33,516 nt of DNA from an uncultured Bacilli bacterium. GTDB lineage: Bacteria; Bacillota_I; Bacilli_A; RF39; UBA660. Below are positions 7,769 through 33,516 of the stretch, piece after piece. The notes under the pieces are model-generated. The model had not been told where the DNA came from and ran no database searches. It saw only the letters and a program-made list of their open reading frames with translations. Location: contig CANQYK010000008.1 in assembly GCA_947628065.1 (NCBI GenBank), forward strand, positions 1 to 33,516, in the 5' to 3' direction. Numbering within the stretch: position 1 is the stretch's first letter; every line of letters begins with the position of its first letter. The position numbers and the translations under genes were made by a program.

Positions 7769-8266
7769 TTATTTCGTTTTCTTTAAGACTTTTTGTCTTA
7801 AATGATTCCAATAATCTTCTCGAAACTTCGCTAATGGATTTTCATCTAAGATAATAATCGCATCCTCTCTTGTAAGTTTAGAATGCGCAATATAATAAGA
7901 ATGATTAGAAAGGATATCTACAAATTGATCATAATCATCCTCAATTTCTTCTTGAACATAAATCGCTGATTCTTCTTTATAATAATCTTGAAAAGGACGA
8001 ACAAAATCTAAAAATATTCCTATGTTATTTATCTTTTCCAAACGATAAAAAAGCTCATTTTTATACCTTGAATAATATTCATCAAAATATATATCTTGAT
8101 TCTTACGTAACAGTGTTTCTACACCTAAAACCATTGCTTCATAATCCTTTAATTCTAAAAAAGGATCAAAGGATTCTTCTCCAAGATAGCGATATTCATT
8201 TTTATTATCATAATAACTTTTATGAGGTTTAATAATACCAAGATAATAATCATCAATATTTAACAT
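7769..8266 (-). CDS. Hypothetical acidic protein (third gene of beta-helix operon)
   Basis: 165 aa, not recognised. It is rich in Tyr, Asp and Glu and predicted mostly helical (DPFLELKDYEAMVLGVETLLRKNQDIYFDEYYSRYKNELFYRLEKI), with no signal peptide or membrane helix, so probably cytoplasmic. It starts four bases after the stop of the upstream beta-helix gene and its ribosome site (AAGGAAA) lies in that gene's last codons, so all three genes form one operon. Its position suggests it works with the two paralogues upstream. No catalytic motif is visible. Confidence 0.75.
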   Translation of the reverse strand: MLNIDDYYLGIIKPHKSYYDNKNEYRYLGEESFDPFLELKDYEAMVLGVETLLRKNQDIYFDEYYSRYKNELFYRLEKINNIGIFLDFVRPFQDYYKEESAIYVQEEIEDDYDQFVDILSNHSYYIAHSKLTREDAIIILDENPLAKFREDYWNHLRQKVLKKTK

Positions 8267-8270
8267 CCCA

Positions 8271-9281
8271 TTATTTCCTTTTTAGATATTTCTTTACTGG
8301 CGTTTGTTCTATATCATCTCTTATTTCATTCTCTATTTTTTGATAATCTTTTTCAATTCGCTCTATTGCTACATTGATTACTCTTTCTTTTTGTTTTTCC
8401 ATACCATTTATAATACTACTTTCTAATTGTCCATGAGAAGTATTTACAAGCTCTCTTACAGTTTGTAAAACAGATAAAAATTCTCTTTTTACTTCCTTTT
8501 CTTGATGACATCCAAAATCACTATCTACTAATCTTACTTCATCCATACCATAATAGGATGCATGTTTTAGTCTTACTTCTTCCTTCCCAGTAAGAAGAGA
8601 AGAATTCATTTTTATTTTCTCTACACCACTCAAATCAAGTATTGTAGAAGATGTTAAATGACTGTTTTCTAGAGTAAGATTTGAAACAATACAAGAACTA
8701 TCAGAAAGAAGTAATGTACTATCTTCTACTTTCATATTAGAAGATTTTATATGCTTTATCTTTAATCCATCTACATTGTGAAAATCAAGATTCTGCGCTA
8801 AAACGTTATCAAAAGTAACATTGTTGGTTTTTCCTGCTATTTTAAATTTTTCCACAAAAGATGAGGAAAGCAATACTGGCTTCAAAACAGCATCTTCATC
8901 GAAATTAACCTCGATATTAGAATTGTTTGCAAAATGAACCTCTTTGACATCATCTTCAAAATGACAAGAAGAAAGATTAATATCCCCACCATCAAAATAT
9001 ATTTGAGACCCCATAAAAGTACAATGATCAAAAATTAATTTTGTATTCTTATTCTCGCACTGAAAAATACTATCTCCTACATATTTTGAATCAAATTTCA
9101 TATTTTTAAAATGAACTTCTTCTACATCACTATCAACTATATACATTTTATCATGCTCATTTCGATAAAATGTATAATAATATTTACTTTGTAAAAGATC
9201 TTTTTTCTTAAAAAAATATCCAATAGATCCTATTTCTTTCGTAACCCCATTTTTTGTATAGATAATATTTGCTTGTCTCAT
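8271..9281 (-). CDS. Predicted beta-helix protein, paralogue 2
   Basis: 336 aa with no signal peptide. From about residue 50 to 250 it is a run of short strands of about 20-25 residues with repeating patterns such as VEEVHFKNMKF, TKLIFDHCTF, DINLSSCHF, VTFDNVLAQNLDFHNVDGLKI and CIVSNLTLENSHL, the look of a right-handed parallel beta-helix. A charged helical segment follows (about 260-325) and a basic end (KYLKRK). It matches the next upstream gene across its length: similar start (GSIGYFFKKKDLL against GYMGFELWKKRKL), same layout and same basic tail. The gene begins one base after the upstream stop, with its ribosome site (AGAGGAAG) inside that gene's end. Function unknown. Confidence 0.8.
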   Translation of the reverse strand: MRQANIIYTKNGVTKEIGSIGYFFKKKDLLQSKYYYTFYRNEHDKMYIVDSDVEEVHFKNMKFDSKYVGDSIFQCENKNTKLIFDHCTFMGSQIYFDGGDINLSSCHFEDDVKEVHFANNSNIEVNFDEDAVLKPVLLSSSFVEKFKIAGKTNNVTFDNVLAQNLDFHNVDGLKIKHIKSSNMKVEDSTLLLSDSSCIVSNLTLENSHLTSSTILDLSGVEKIKMNSSLLTGKEEVRLKHASYYGMDEVRLVDSDFGCHQEKEVKREFLSVLQTVRELVNTSHGQLESSIINGMEKQKERVINVAIERIEKDYQKIENEIRDDIEQTPVKKYLKRK

Positions 9282-30561: not shown

Positions 30562-30641
30562 ACTCCCTTTCTTGCACGATAAAAAGAATCTTGGTAACTC
30601 TCTAAAGCTACCCCCCGTAACTCTTGGTAAACTTTACTCAT
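30555..30641 (-). CDS. Possible 28-residue small protein
   Basis: ATG at 30641 follows GAAGGAATG, which is in the last codons of the SGNH gene, and begins one base after its TGA, so translation coupling is likely. The peptide (MSKVYQELRGVALESYQDSF...) is amphipathic and contains six G in the codons for Arg-Gly. The context resembles the G-run leader ORFs further upstream (GTTTAC ... TTAC ... G run ... TAGCTT). The stop lies inside a terminator stem. It may be a real small protein, a degenerate leader copy or a remnant. Confidence 0.4.
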   Translation of the reverse strand: MSKVYQELRGVALESYQDSFYRARKGVE

Positions 30642-30642
30642 T

Positions 30643-31728
30643 TCACATTCCTTCTTTCTTTTGATATGACTTCAGTATATCATCAAAATTCTTTTTTGTT
30701 AAGTTCTTAAAATCATTTTTAAATCTTTGATATTCATTTTCCCATGATTGATATTTTTTATCTTTTCGATGATCTTTTAACTTATAATGATCATGCAAAT
30801 ATTTTGAAAAATATAAAGTAAATTTCGTCGCACCATAAGTATTCAAATGCGGAATCATAAATAACTCTTTTTCAAAATCTATAGAAAAATCATTCAGTAA
30901 ATTAAAATTAATAATTTTAAACCCTTTATCATCTAAAAGTCTAGTAGCATAATTTAACAATACCACTCTTTCTGTTGTATAAACACAAGGTGGAATTACA
31001 AATAATACATTTAGTTTTTCTTTTTTTATATACTTCATTAAATCTTTTAATATTTCTATATTTTTTCCCGATTTCTTTATGCCATCCACATAAAATAAAT
31101 TTTGATCCCAATGGAAGTTTGTTTGTTTTGCTGTTTGGATCGTTTTAGAGGAAAACAAATATCCTTTATAATATTCTTCTATATCACTGAAATTATTTTT
31201 TTTAAGATTTTTCCAACTATTATGATACAGAAGAAAACTAAATTCATAATTTAAAATATTATTCTTTGATTTTGAATTCAAGTCACTTTTTTCTAAATTT
31301 ATATATTTAAAAAAAGTTTTAATTGAATTACTTTTGTTTTGAGAAAACTTCATATTATCAACAGTATTTCGGATTGCATCTTCTTTAAAAAACTTATCTA
31401 AATTTGATGAAAGATGATACAAATCAATAATATAAAGTTCTGGCTTTTGATATTTTCTAACTTCTTTTATTAAATTTTTTGAAAATAAAAATGGTTGATT
31501 TTCTGCTGTTACTAAACCTGTTGTAAAACCATACAAATCATAACTTAAAGTAGAATTAAAATGATACATAGATGTACTTGAGCCAATATAGACAATATCT
31601 AATGAATTTTTAGGTTCCTTATAAAAATAATAAACTGGTTTTTTCTCAATCCAAAGTACATTAAAAGTTAAATTCCAAATAATACAAAATATTAAAATAA
31701 ATATAATACATTTTACAATTTTTTTCAT
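30643..31728 (-). CDS. SGNH/DltD-like acyltransferase partner, copy A
   Basis: 361 aa. One N-terminal membrane helix (about 5-25), the rest outside. Block I is VYIGSSTSMYHFNSTLSYDLYG with Gly-x-Ser nucleophile region; strands LYIIDLYHLS and LNVLFVIPP follow; block V is IPHLNTYGATKFTLYF with the catalytic His but without the Asp that usually precedes it by three residues. The family resembles DltD/AlgJ-type proteins that hand an acyl group from an MBOAT enzyme to a cell-surface polymer. It is about half identical to copy B, with the same tail (LKDHRKDKKYQSW). Its leader ORF is closed at the present G-run length. Confidence 0.82.
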   Translation of the reverse strand: MKKIVKCIIFILIFCIIWNLTFNVLWIEKKPVYYFYKEPKNSLDIVYIGSSTSMYHFNSTLSYDLYGFTTGLVTAENQPFLFSKNLIKEVRKYQKPELYIIDLYHLSSNLDKFFKEDAIRNTVDNMKFSQNKSNSIKTFFKYINLEKSDLNSKSKNNILNYEFSFLLYHNSWKNLKKNNFSDIEEYYKGYLFSSKTIQTAKQTNFHWDQNLFYVDGIKKSGKNIEILKDLMKYIKKEKLNVLFVIPPCVYTTERVVLLNYATRLLDDKGFKIINFNLLNDFSIDFEKELFMIPHLNTYGATKFTLYFSKYLHDHYKLKDHRKDKKYQSWENEYQRFKNDFKNLTKKNFDDILKSYQKKEGM

Positions 31729-31796
31729 ATTACCACCACAGTAAGATTTTTGAAATATTGTAAAATGTAATAATACTTAAAATTAGGTTAGGTAAG

Positions 31797-31838
31797 CTAT
31801 CCCCCCCCCCGGGTTACAATTTGTAAACAAATATTCAT
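31797..31838 (-). CDS. Leader ORF A with G10 run, early stop
   Basis: ATG 31838 has the ribosome site AAAGGTG (31855-31849). It reads MNICLQIVTRGGG and then meets TAG because the G run (31801-31810) is ten bases. With nine or twelve G it would stay open to TAA one base before the SGNH copy A start; with eleven it would stop soon after. So this copy is read as off. It may be regulatory rather than a functional peptide. Confidence 0.5.
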   Translation of the reverse strand: MNICLQIVTRGGG

Positions 31839-31856
31839 TTCTAATCTACACCTTTC

Positions 31857-31893
31857 TTAAAAATTTCTATAAAATCTGATAAATCAACCCCTA
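31857..31893 (-). pseudogene. Relic of an MBOAT 3' end
   Basis: The minus strand sequence before leader A (GATTT-ATC-AGATTTTATAGAAAT, then TTTTAAGAAAGG) matches the end of the MBOAT gene (ADFIYRNF stop) with a four-base deletion. The remaining spacer to 31991 is AT-rich and shows no gene. Confidence 0.55.
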
Positions 31894-31991
31894 TTTCATA
31901 TAATAACTTATTATAAAATACAAAGATTATAATATAAATATTAAAATGATTTTATTATTATCAATTCAATACAACAAATTATAGATAAAAA

Positions 31992-33056
31992 TTATCTACT
32001 ATTTTTTGAATCTATTTTTAGTAAATTATCAAAATCTCTATCTGTTAAATCTTTGAAATCTTTTTTTAATCTTTGATATTCTTTTTCCCATGATTGATAT
32101 TTTTTATCTTTACGATGATCCTTTAATTCATAATGCTCTTTTAAGTAGTTAGAAAAATACAGTGTATATTTCGTCGCACCATAAACATTTAAGTGATTTT
32201 GATTATAAAAATCTGTATTAAAATCAACAGTAAAATCTTTTAATGTATTAAAATTTATTACCTTATAACCTTTTTTTTCAATGATAGAAGTTGCTTCTCC
32301 TAATCTACCAACAATCCATTCATTCATATTTCTAATTGGAATTAAAAATAAAACATTTAAATTTTCTTTTTTAACATATTCAAGTAGATCCAATAGAGCT
32401 TCTTTATTTTCTTTTGGTAATTTATGATTATTTTCACTCCAAATAAATTTCTTTTGAGGCACTTTTTTTATTCGATAATTATCAAAAAGATATCCTTTAT
32501 AGAGATTAGTTCTTCCTTTAAAATTTAAAAGTTGCAAATTTTTCCAACTATTATGATAAAGTAAAAAGCTAAAATAATAATTATAATAATTATTACCAGC
32601 TTTTGAGGTAGGATCGTTTTTCATAACATTAGTAAATTTTAAACTAGCTTTAATCGCATCATTTCTATTTCTAGAAAATTTCATGGAATCAGTTGTTCTT
32701 CTAATATCGCCTTCATTATATAAATTTGAATCAGTCCCAAATCGCGATATATCAATAACATAAAGAGAAGGTTTTTGTCTTTTTTGTGTTTCCTTCATCA
32801 ATGGAACCAAAGTTACAGGTGGTTGTGAATCCGTAGACATAAAACCTGTAGTAAATCCATATAAATGATATCCTAACGTAGTATTATAATGTGCATAAGC
32901 ATTACTTGAACCTAAGTAAATAATATCAATAGAATTTTCTCTTTCTTTATATAAATTTGATATTGGAGTATCACTTAACCACAAAATATTAAATAGACAA
33001 TTCCAAATAATACCAAATAATGAAATAAATAGAATACATTTTACAATTTTTTTCAT
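31992..33056 (-). CDS. SGNH/DltD-like acyltransferase partner, copy B
   Basis: 354 aa, paralogue of copy A. Membrane helix at about 5-25 (CILFISLFGIIWNCLFNILW), then external. Block I IYLGSSNAYAHYNTTLGYHLYGFTTGF, LYVIDISRFG, LNVLFLIPI and block V QNHLNVYGATKYTLYFSNYL; again the His is present and the Asp at the usual place is not. It directly follows the MBOAT gene and leader ORF B, the standard pairing for O-acylation of surface polymers (compare DltB-DltD, AlgI-AlgJ, PatA-PatB; named by analogy). Leader ORF B is open at ten G and ends one base before this start, so this copy should be translated. Confidence 0.85.
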   Translation of the reverse strand: MKKIVKCILFISLFGIIWNCLFNILWLSDTPISNLYKERENSIDIIYLGSSNAYAHYNTTLGYHLYGFTTGFMSTDSQPPVTLVPLMKETQKRQKPSLYVIDISRFGTDSNLYNEGDIRRTTDSMKFSRNRNDAIKASLKFTNVMKNDPTSKAGNNYYNYYFSFLLYHNSWKNLQLLNFKGRTNLYKGYLFDNYRIKKVPQKKFIWSENNHKLPKENKEALLDLLEYVKKENLNVLFLIPIRNMNEWIVGRLGEATSIIEKKGYKVINFNTLKDFTVDFNTDFYNQNHLNVYGATKYTLYFSNYLKEHYELKDHRKDKKYQSWEKEYQRLKKDFKDLTDRDFDNLLKIDSKNSR

Positions 33057-33057
33057 A

Positions 33058-33165
33058 TTACCACCATAATAAGATTTCTGAAATATTGTAAAATGCCATA
33101 ATATTCAAAATTAGGTTGGGTAAAGTACCCCCCCCCCGGGTTACATTTTGTAAACAAACATTCAT
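33058..33165 (-). CDS. Leader ORF B with G10 run, open and coupled
   Basis: 35 codons from ATG 33165 (RBS AAAGGTG at 33182-33176, starting right behind the MBOAT stop). It begins MNVCLQNVTRGGG, crosses a run of ten G (33128-33137) and ends ...SEILLWW TAA at 33058, with the SGNH start at 33056, so the stop and start are one base apart. With eleven G it would end in TGA overlapping the ATG; with nine or twelve it would stop after the run. So two of three phases couple translation. Confidence 0.55.
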   Translation of the reverse strand: MNVCLQNVTRGGGTLPNLILNIMAFYNISEILLWW

Positions 33166-33183
33166 TTTTAATCTACACCTTTC

Positions 33184-33516
33184 TTAAAAATTTCTATAAA
33201 TAAAGTCTGCCGGATCATATCCTACACCATAACATCCAAAGATAATAATGGAAAAAATTAGTAAATATATTATTGTCCATCGAAAAACAATATTTTGTTT
33301 AAAGAGTTTTTCTCTAACATTTCCTTTTTTCGCCATGAAATCAACAACAAATAGTACAAATAATGATATGATCAAAACACGAAAGTCAAGCATATCTACT
33401 CCTGCTGTATATAAGGACTTATTATCAAATAAAACCCATGGATTATAGAAAAACATATTCTTAATTATTTTTATCCCAAATCCAATACTAGATGCTCTAA
33501 AAAATATCATTGCAAA
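33184..33516 (-). CDS. MBOAT family O-acyltransferase, C-terminal part
   Basis: Open to the right window edge; the last 110 codons are visible. FFRASSIGFGIKII is the typical MBOAT segment, followed by three membrane helices (LIISLFVLFVVDFM, WTIIYLLIFSIIIFG) and the family end YGVGYDPADFIYRNF (usually YGPGYDASEFIYFQF in AlgI-like proteins). The active-site His lies outside the window. It should pass acyl groups across the membrane to the SGNH partner encoded right behind it. Leader ORF B begins 18 bases after the stop. Confidence 0.88.
   Translation of the reverse strand, partial: FAMIFFRASSIGFGIKIIKNMFFYNPWVLFDNKSLYTAGVDMLDFRVLIISLFVLFVVDFMAKKGNVREKLFKQNIVFRWTIIYLLIFSIIIFGCYGVGYDPADFIYRNF

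Follow-up and report, generated by a model that had tools for sequence, protein, structure and literature searches.

Poly-G leader cassettes before SGNH-like and surface-protein genes: candidate phase-variable attenuators in a genus of uncultured small-genome bacteria

The two SGNH-like genes in the stretch of DNA analysed here (33,516 nucleotides, hereafter the window) are each preceded by a short leader ORF that carries a run of ten G, and these leaders are, to judge from their sequence, a variant of a cassette found before dozens of genes for surface proteins in the same genome and genus. About two dozen related switches most likely exist in the genome and more than 100 in the genus. The cassettes probably act by slipped-strand phase variation that works through a leader peptide, with attenuation at the surface genes and with hairpin opening followed by reinitiation at the SGNH genes.

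Leaders and inverted repeats of the SGNH loci

In the window, 8-mers of G occur six times against 0.08 expected, and all six come from two G10 runs on the minus strand, which direct reading of the sequence places as C10 on the plus strand at 31801-31810 and 33128-33137. Around these two runs the following features are recognized.

30643 to 31728, minus strand: SGNH-like gene copy A, 361 aa
31704 to 31723, minus strand: 3′ arm of the inverted repeat of copy A, formed by SGNH A codons 2-8 (0 of 300 shuffles as good)
31753 to 31772, minus strand: 5′ arm of the inverted repeat of copy A, past both short stops and translated in the G9/G12 phase only
31797 to 31838, minus strand: leader ORF A at G10, MNICLQIVTRGGG, with TAG right behind the tract; predicted off
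31801 to 31810, minus strand: G10 tract of leader A, read from the sequence
31850 to 31858, minus strand: RBS of leader A (AAGAAAGGT), read from the sequence; paralogous cassettes share the RBS context
31910 to 31938, minus strand: promoter-like site upstream of leader A, TTTATA-17-TATAAT, a consensus match only
31992 to 33056, minus strand: SGNH-like gene copy B, 354 aa, 52% identity with copy A
33037 to 33051, minus strand: 3′ arm of the inverted repeat of copy B, formed by the SGNH B start (1 of 300 shuffles as good)
33058 to 33165, minus strand: leader ORF B at G10, with its TAA one base short of the SGNH B ATG; predicted on
33081 to 33095, minus strand: 5′ arm of the inverted repeat of copy B, inside leader B
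33128 to 33137, minus strand: G10 tract of leader B, read from the sequence
33177 to 33185, minus strand: RBS of leader B, read from the sequence; it shares bases with the MBOAT stop
33184 to 33516, minus strand: 3′ portion of a putative MBOAT gene, truncated where the contig ends at 33516

Both leaders have their own RBS, the identical AAGAAAGGT. Leader A, which extends from the ATG at 31838 to 31797, reads ..GTA ACC CGG GGG GGG GGA TAG, and leader B, which begins with the ATG at 33165, reads ..GTA ACC CGG GGG GGG GGT ACT TTA ... TGG TGG TAA; the TAA is followed by a single T and then by the SGNH ATG at 33056. A sequence-only reading of the window had described the same RBS, short ORF and ten G before both genes, with copy B open to TAA-T-ATG and copy A stopped at once by TAG, and direct reading bears out this description. 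Its further claim that the two copies respond differently to run length agrees with the stops computed for G9 to G12. Counted from the end of the tract, leader A stops at +68 with G9 or G12, at +1 with G10 and at +15 with G11, and its long phase is therefore G9/G12. Leader B stops at +14 with G9 or G12, at +67 with G10 and at +72 with G11, and thus has two open phases, the second of which ends in ATGA at the SGNH start. With the assembled G10 tracts, SGNH A is predicted to be off and SGNH B to be on. Upstream of leader A, the stretch 31855-31890 resembles the 3′ end of the MBOAT-like gene, which suggests that copy A arose from a duplication of the MBOAT end, the leader and the SGNH gene.

The SGNH identity of both genes, which were initially read as acyltransferases, is only moderately supported, by alignment and by structural modelling. 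The G, S and H positions are conserved in an alignment with relatives, one of which (L008) has a GDSL-type block, and the predicted model of the SGNH-like protein, which is of low confidence (mean pLDDT 63), gives weak fold matches to SGNH enzymes including TesA and the O-acetyltransferase PatB (best E about 0.02). On the other side, proteins A and B are without a significant Pfam or NCBIfam match. MBOAT/SGNH O-acyltransferase pairs such as PatA/PatB exist, and the arrangement here is similar in that an SGNH-like gene stands behind an MBOAT-type gene. It differs in that the candidate leader switch sits between the two genes, whereas in the relatives L007 and L008 the upstream membrane gene is followed directly by the SGNH gene, with no leader between them. 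The upstream gene has a Pfam MBOAT match in L008 only; that of L007 is without one.

In both copies, an inverted repeat with arms of 15-20 nt encloses the RBS and the start of the SGNH gene. Repeats as good as these were obtained in 0 of 300 shuffles for A and 1 of 300 for B, and the repeat shared by A and B counts as one observation because the copies are duplicates. The 5′ arm lies past the short leader stops in both copies, and only the long-leader phases translate across it. The layout of a translation attenuator, namely a hairpin that hides the RBS and start and has its 5′ arm within the leader ORF, is predicted at both SGNH A and SGNH B. No terminator-like site was found at the SGNH copies within 30600-33516, so that they would resemble the pil1-type attenuators discussed below in their working and yet are not members of that class.

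According to the proposed mechanism, a ribosome would begin on the short leader ORF and translate through the G tract, and the length of the tract modulo 3 would determine whether it meets a stop at most about 15 nt past the tract or continues to the SGNH start. After an early stop, the inverted repeat over the SGNH RBS and start codon could fold in the cell, and SGNH translation would be low. A long leader would open the 5′ arm, and its end, which adjoins the ATG (TAA-T-ATG; in B also ATGA, in its second open phase), would permit reinitiation, so that a change of tract length within the population would switch SGNH output. In ermC-type translation attenuators, a hairpin masking the RBS of the downstream gene is likewise opened when a leader is translated, as predicted for the SGNH copies; the signal in the ermC type is drug-induced stalling, whereas here tract length would give the signal by fixing the reading phase.

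Hairpin opening with reinitiation is the weakest step of this mechanism, because the folding energies of the whole leaders are not unusual (no better than shuffles, with z of -0.65 and -1.32); the SGNH hairpin is also nearly all A-U. These properties would equally suit plain translational coupling, in which the inverted repeat has no role and the long leader does no more than bring ribosomes to TAA-T-ATG, and copy B at G10 does end at such a site. Coupling or reinitiation at TAA-T-ATG, which the earlier reading had proposed, fits B and also A in its G9/G12 phase, but that reading missed the inverted repeat enclosing the RBS. Because the repeat is far above shuffles in both copies, and because its place between the short and the long stops mirrors that of the terminator in other cassettes, coupling without a role for the hairpin is unlikely, and opening of the hairpin followed by reinitiation is the preferred reading.

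The cassette family and its terminators

The genome contains 31 runs of G8 or longer, 28 of which are G9 or longer, against about 0.1 G9+ runs per genome estimated from a GC content of 28.6% (genome-wide expectations are estimates throughout), and G9+ runs are found in 34 of 35 genomes of the genus. Nearly all of the G8+ runs in the genome sit in one cassette, which consists of an RBS, an ATG, a short ORF with the conserved GTTTACAA..GTTACCT or GTTTAC, and the G tract; one exception is a G8 within a dnaA-like ORF (L042). A slippage switch through a G-run leader is still the best reading of the SGNH loci, as originally suggested, but it is not special to the SGNH genes. The genes behind the cassettes encode for the most part long proteins whose only membrane segment is N-terminal, some of them with DUF6273 or Big_2 domains; others encode EssC (FtsK/SpoIIIE domains), an Avd-like protein, an NDP-hexose 2,3-dehydratase and prophage tail-fibre-like proteins. 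From this genome and its relatives, 141 distinct elements with tracts of G8 to G12 were gathered; leader start codons were picked by a simple RBS score, which left some elements without a start.

An intrinsic terminator stands behind the tract in 118 of the 141 elements. A hairpin and T run with a score of at least 12 were found in 106 of the 135 elements that had enough sequence, compared with 0.5 in shuffles, and the median energy is -10.5 kcal/mol. The reading phases are arranged in a characteristic way around this terminator: two phases stop 30-40 nt before it and the third ends inside it, with medians of 34 nt ahead of the hairpin for the short stops and 10 nt into the hairpin for the long-phase stop. 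This pattern of a pair of early stops and a third within the hairpin is seen in 98 of 118 elements, against 42.5 (sd 5.3) when spacers are shuffled, a comparison that overstates independence because many of the elements are homologous paralogs. Among non-redundant spacers, 12 of 18 show the two-short-one-long pattern (null 5.7, sd 2.0; best of 300 shuffles 12), and this result for the stop geometry is supportive but not overwhelming. The number of G that gives the long phase varies between elements, and one long phase is kept. In these surface-gene cassettes the long leader should block termination, as in Streptococcus gallolyticus pil1.

Several individual loci extend the range of targets. 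A prophage with tape measure, tail proteins and amidase (L225 5307-15967, in G010) has a G-tract leader upstream of 8045-8449, and L026, L030, L035 and L093 carry leaders of this type as well; the genes behind them are small and tail-fibre-like, are flanked by the tail genes and the endolysin, and have possible alternative hairpins around the RBS. A G-tract leader and a terminator-like hairpin lie upstream of essC, the gene of a type VII secretion ATPase (L227 4190-8749 in G015, and L025 in G018). In L024/L228 (G017:C54), a G9 is located upstream of the Avd-like gene of a diversity-generating retroelement, and the tract stands behind a protein end that resembles a variable-region target. In the present genome (L040, G000:C3 about 29990), a G10 leader precedes the NDP-hexose 2,3-dehydratase gene, which suggests a phase-variable sugar.

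Some leaders are also modified in sequence. In L065 and L139, a short insert with ttctcggacagtctgggggg is found at the G tract, as if by insertion into the run or by partial duplication, and GGGTAAAATAATTCGTCAAT is a repeated unit upstream of or within the leader in L015, L021, L023, L036, L103, L118 and L142. An Rfam search of 14 loci matched no known RNA family, and a search of viral contigs with two cassette patterns gave no match.

Tract lengths, fixed-tract slippage and promoter spacing

Tract lengths differ between elements, from G8 to G12, and between genomes. In this genome the tracts are strikingly uniform, nearly all being G10, and every scored terminator-type copy is in a short phase; such uniformity is not expected from free slippage alone. 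Both predicted states occur in the collection, since the long phase is found in about two-thirds of the G8 elements whose start could be scored and most G9-G10 elements are in a short phase. The observed tract exceeds the long-phase length by one G in 63 of 102 scored elements. The short-state bias in the relatives is partly a matter of ascertainment, because they were first sampled at G9+ only, and the search for G8 then added mostly long-phase copies.

The uniform lengths (G10 here, mostly G9 elsewhere) and the excess of elements one G above the long phase are what would be expected if RNA polymerase or the ribosome slipped in a programmed manner on a G tract of fixed length, so that long leaders made up a small and constant fraction. 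Such programmed slippage is improbable, since it agrees poorly with the range of lengths between elements and with the presence of long-phase copies, and since the initial restriction to G9+ inflates the bias that speaks for it. Slipped-strand phase variation, in which the length of the tract itself changes, remains the preferred reading.

Promoter-spacer phase variation, in which a G tract between -35 and -10 tunes transcription by its length, would be in keeping with the TTG.. boxes that span 29 of 66 scored tracts in other genera of the family and with the layout of genus g43, but it is very improbable here, because spanning boxes occur at 0 of 29 tracts here and at 4 of 112 tracts from relatives in the genus, and because the candidate promoters, which have a 17-nt spacer, are situated some 65-130 nt ahead of the leader start. 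As a general mode in the genus, the promoter-spacer switch was rejected on these two counts. Neisseria porA, which is subject to promoter-spacer poly-G phase variation, shares with the present loci a poly-G tract before surface genes and differs in acting through a promoter spacing that none of the 29 tracts of this genome has.

Beyond the genus, a plain search for G9+ was positive in 84 of 154 genomes of the family, whereas the pattern TTACCT-G9 was found in 14 of 385 genomes of the order, a figure that is an under-count because this genome itself mostly carries other prefixes. In other genera the tracts lie between promoter boxes in many cases, inside ORFs in some and in leaders with a terminator in some. 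In genus g43 (L199, L203, L206, L209, L218 and L221), homologous surface genes have a G tract between TTGACA and TAGAAT, which corresponds to a promoter-spacer switch. Cassettes with leader and terminator and with unrelated leader sequences are found in further genera of the family (L260-L271 in G428 and L274-L278 in G195).

Precedent and significance

A coding leader that ends at the start of an MBOAT-partner gene had seemed unfamiliar in this group at first reading, and this view has to be revised in part, because control by a phase-variable leader peptide is experimentally proven in S. gallolyticus, where GCAGA repeats govern leader attenuators at the two pilus loci pil1 and pil3 (Danne et al., 2014; PMC3894217). 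A pil1 leader with 22 repeats stops tens of nucleotides before the terminator, and leaders with 21 or 23 repeats reach just before or inside the terminator and raise transcription (PMC3894217). The surface-gene cassettes share with pil1 the terminator between leader and gene, with one phase reaching into it and the others ending upstream; in these cassettes and in both SGNH copies, as in pil1, the repeats are part of a leader ORF that has an RBS of its own. A surface structure is the controlled target in pil1 and the predicted one of the surface-gene cassettes. The differences are that pil1 and pil3 use a pentamer at two loci, whereas a G mononucleotide tract is found at dozens of loci per genome here; that a terminator there is replaced by an RBS-enclosing hairpin at the SGNH copies; and that switching has been demonstrated there and is predicted here. 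What appears to be new in comparison with pil1 is the scale, the G run and the position before a putative acyltransferase gene. Our literature search, for which subscription journals were mostly outside coverage, found the S. gallolyticus precedent and nothing on the present group.

On balance, we favour the view that the whole genus and parts of its family possess a surface phasome of dozens of loci under poly-G leader attenuators. The read-outs of these attenuators would be interchangeable, either a terminator or an RBS hairpin with reinitiation, and the controlled genes would include, besides those for adhesin-like proteins, the ones for an O-acyltransferase partner and for the type VII secretion ATPase EssC, an Avd-like gene and tail-fibre-like genes of prophages. 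A geometry like that of pil1, for which the literature precedent found comprises two pilus loci, recurs more than 100 times within a single genus of bacteria that are uncultured and have small genomes. The same geometry is present with unrelated leader sequences in G428 and G195, beside relatives that have the G tract in promoters or genes. If the loci switch as predicted, single-base changes in tract length would decide on the expression of surface proteins, secretion ATPase and prophage fibres and on glycan acylation. The states of the loci would then be readable from metagenomic reads, which would allow large-scale, culture-free tests of phase variation.
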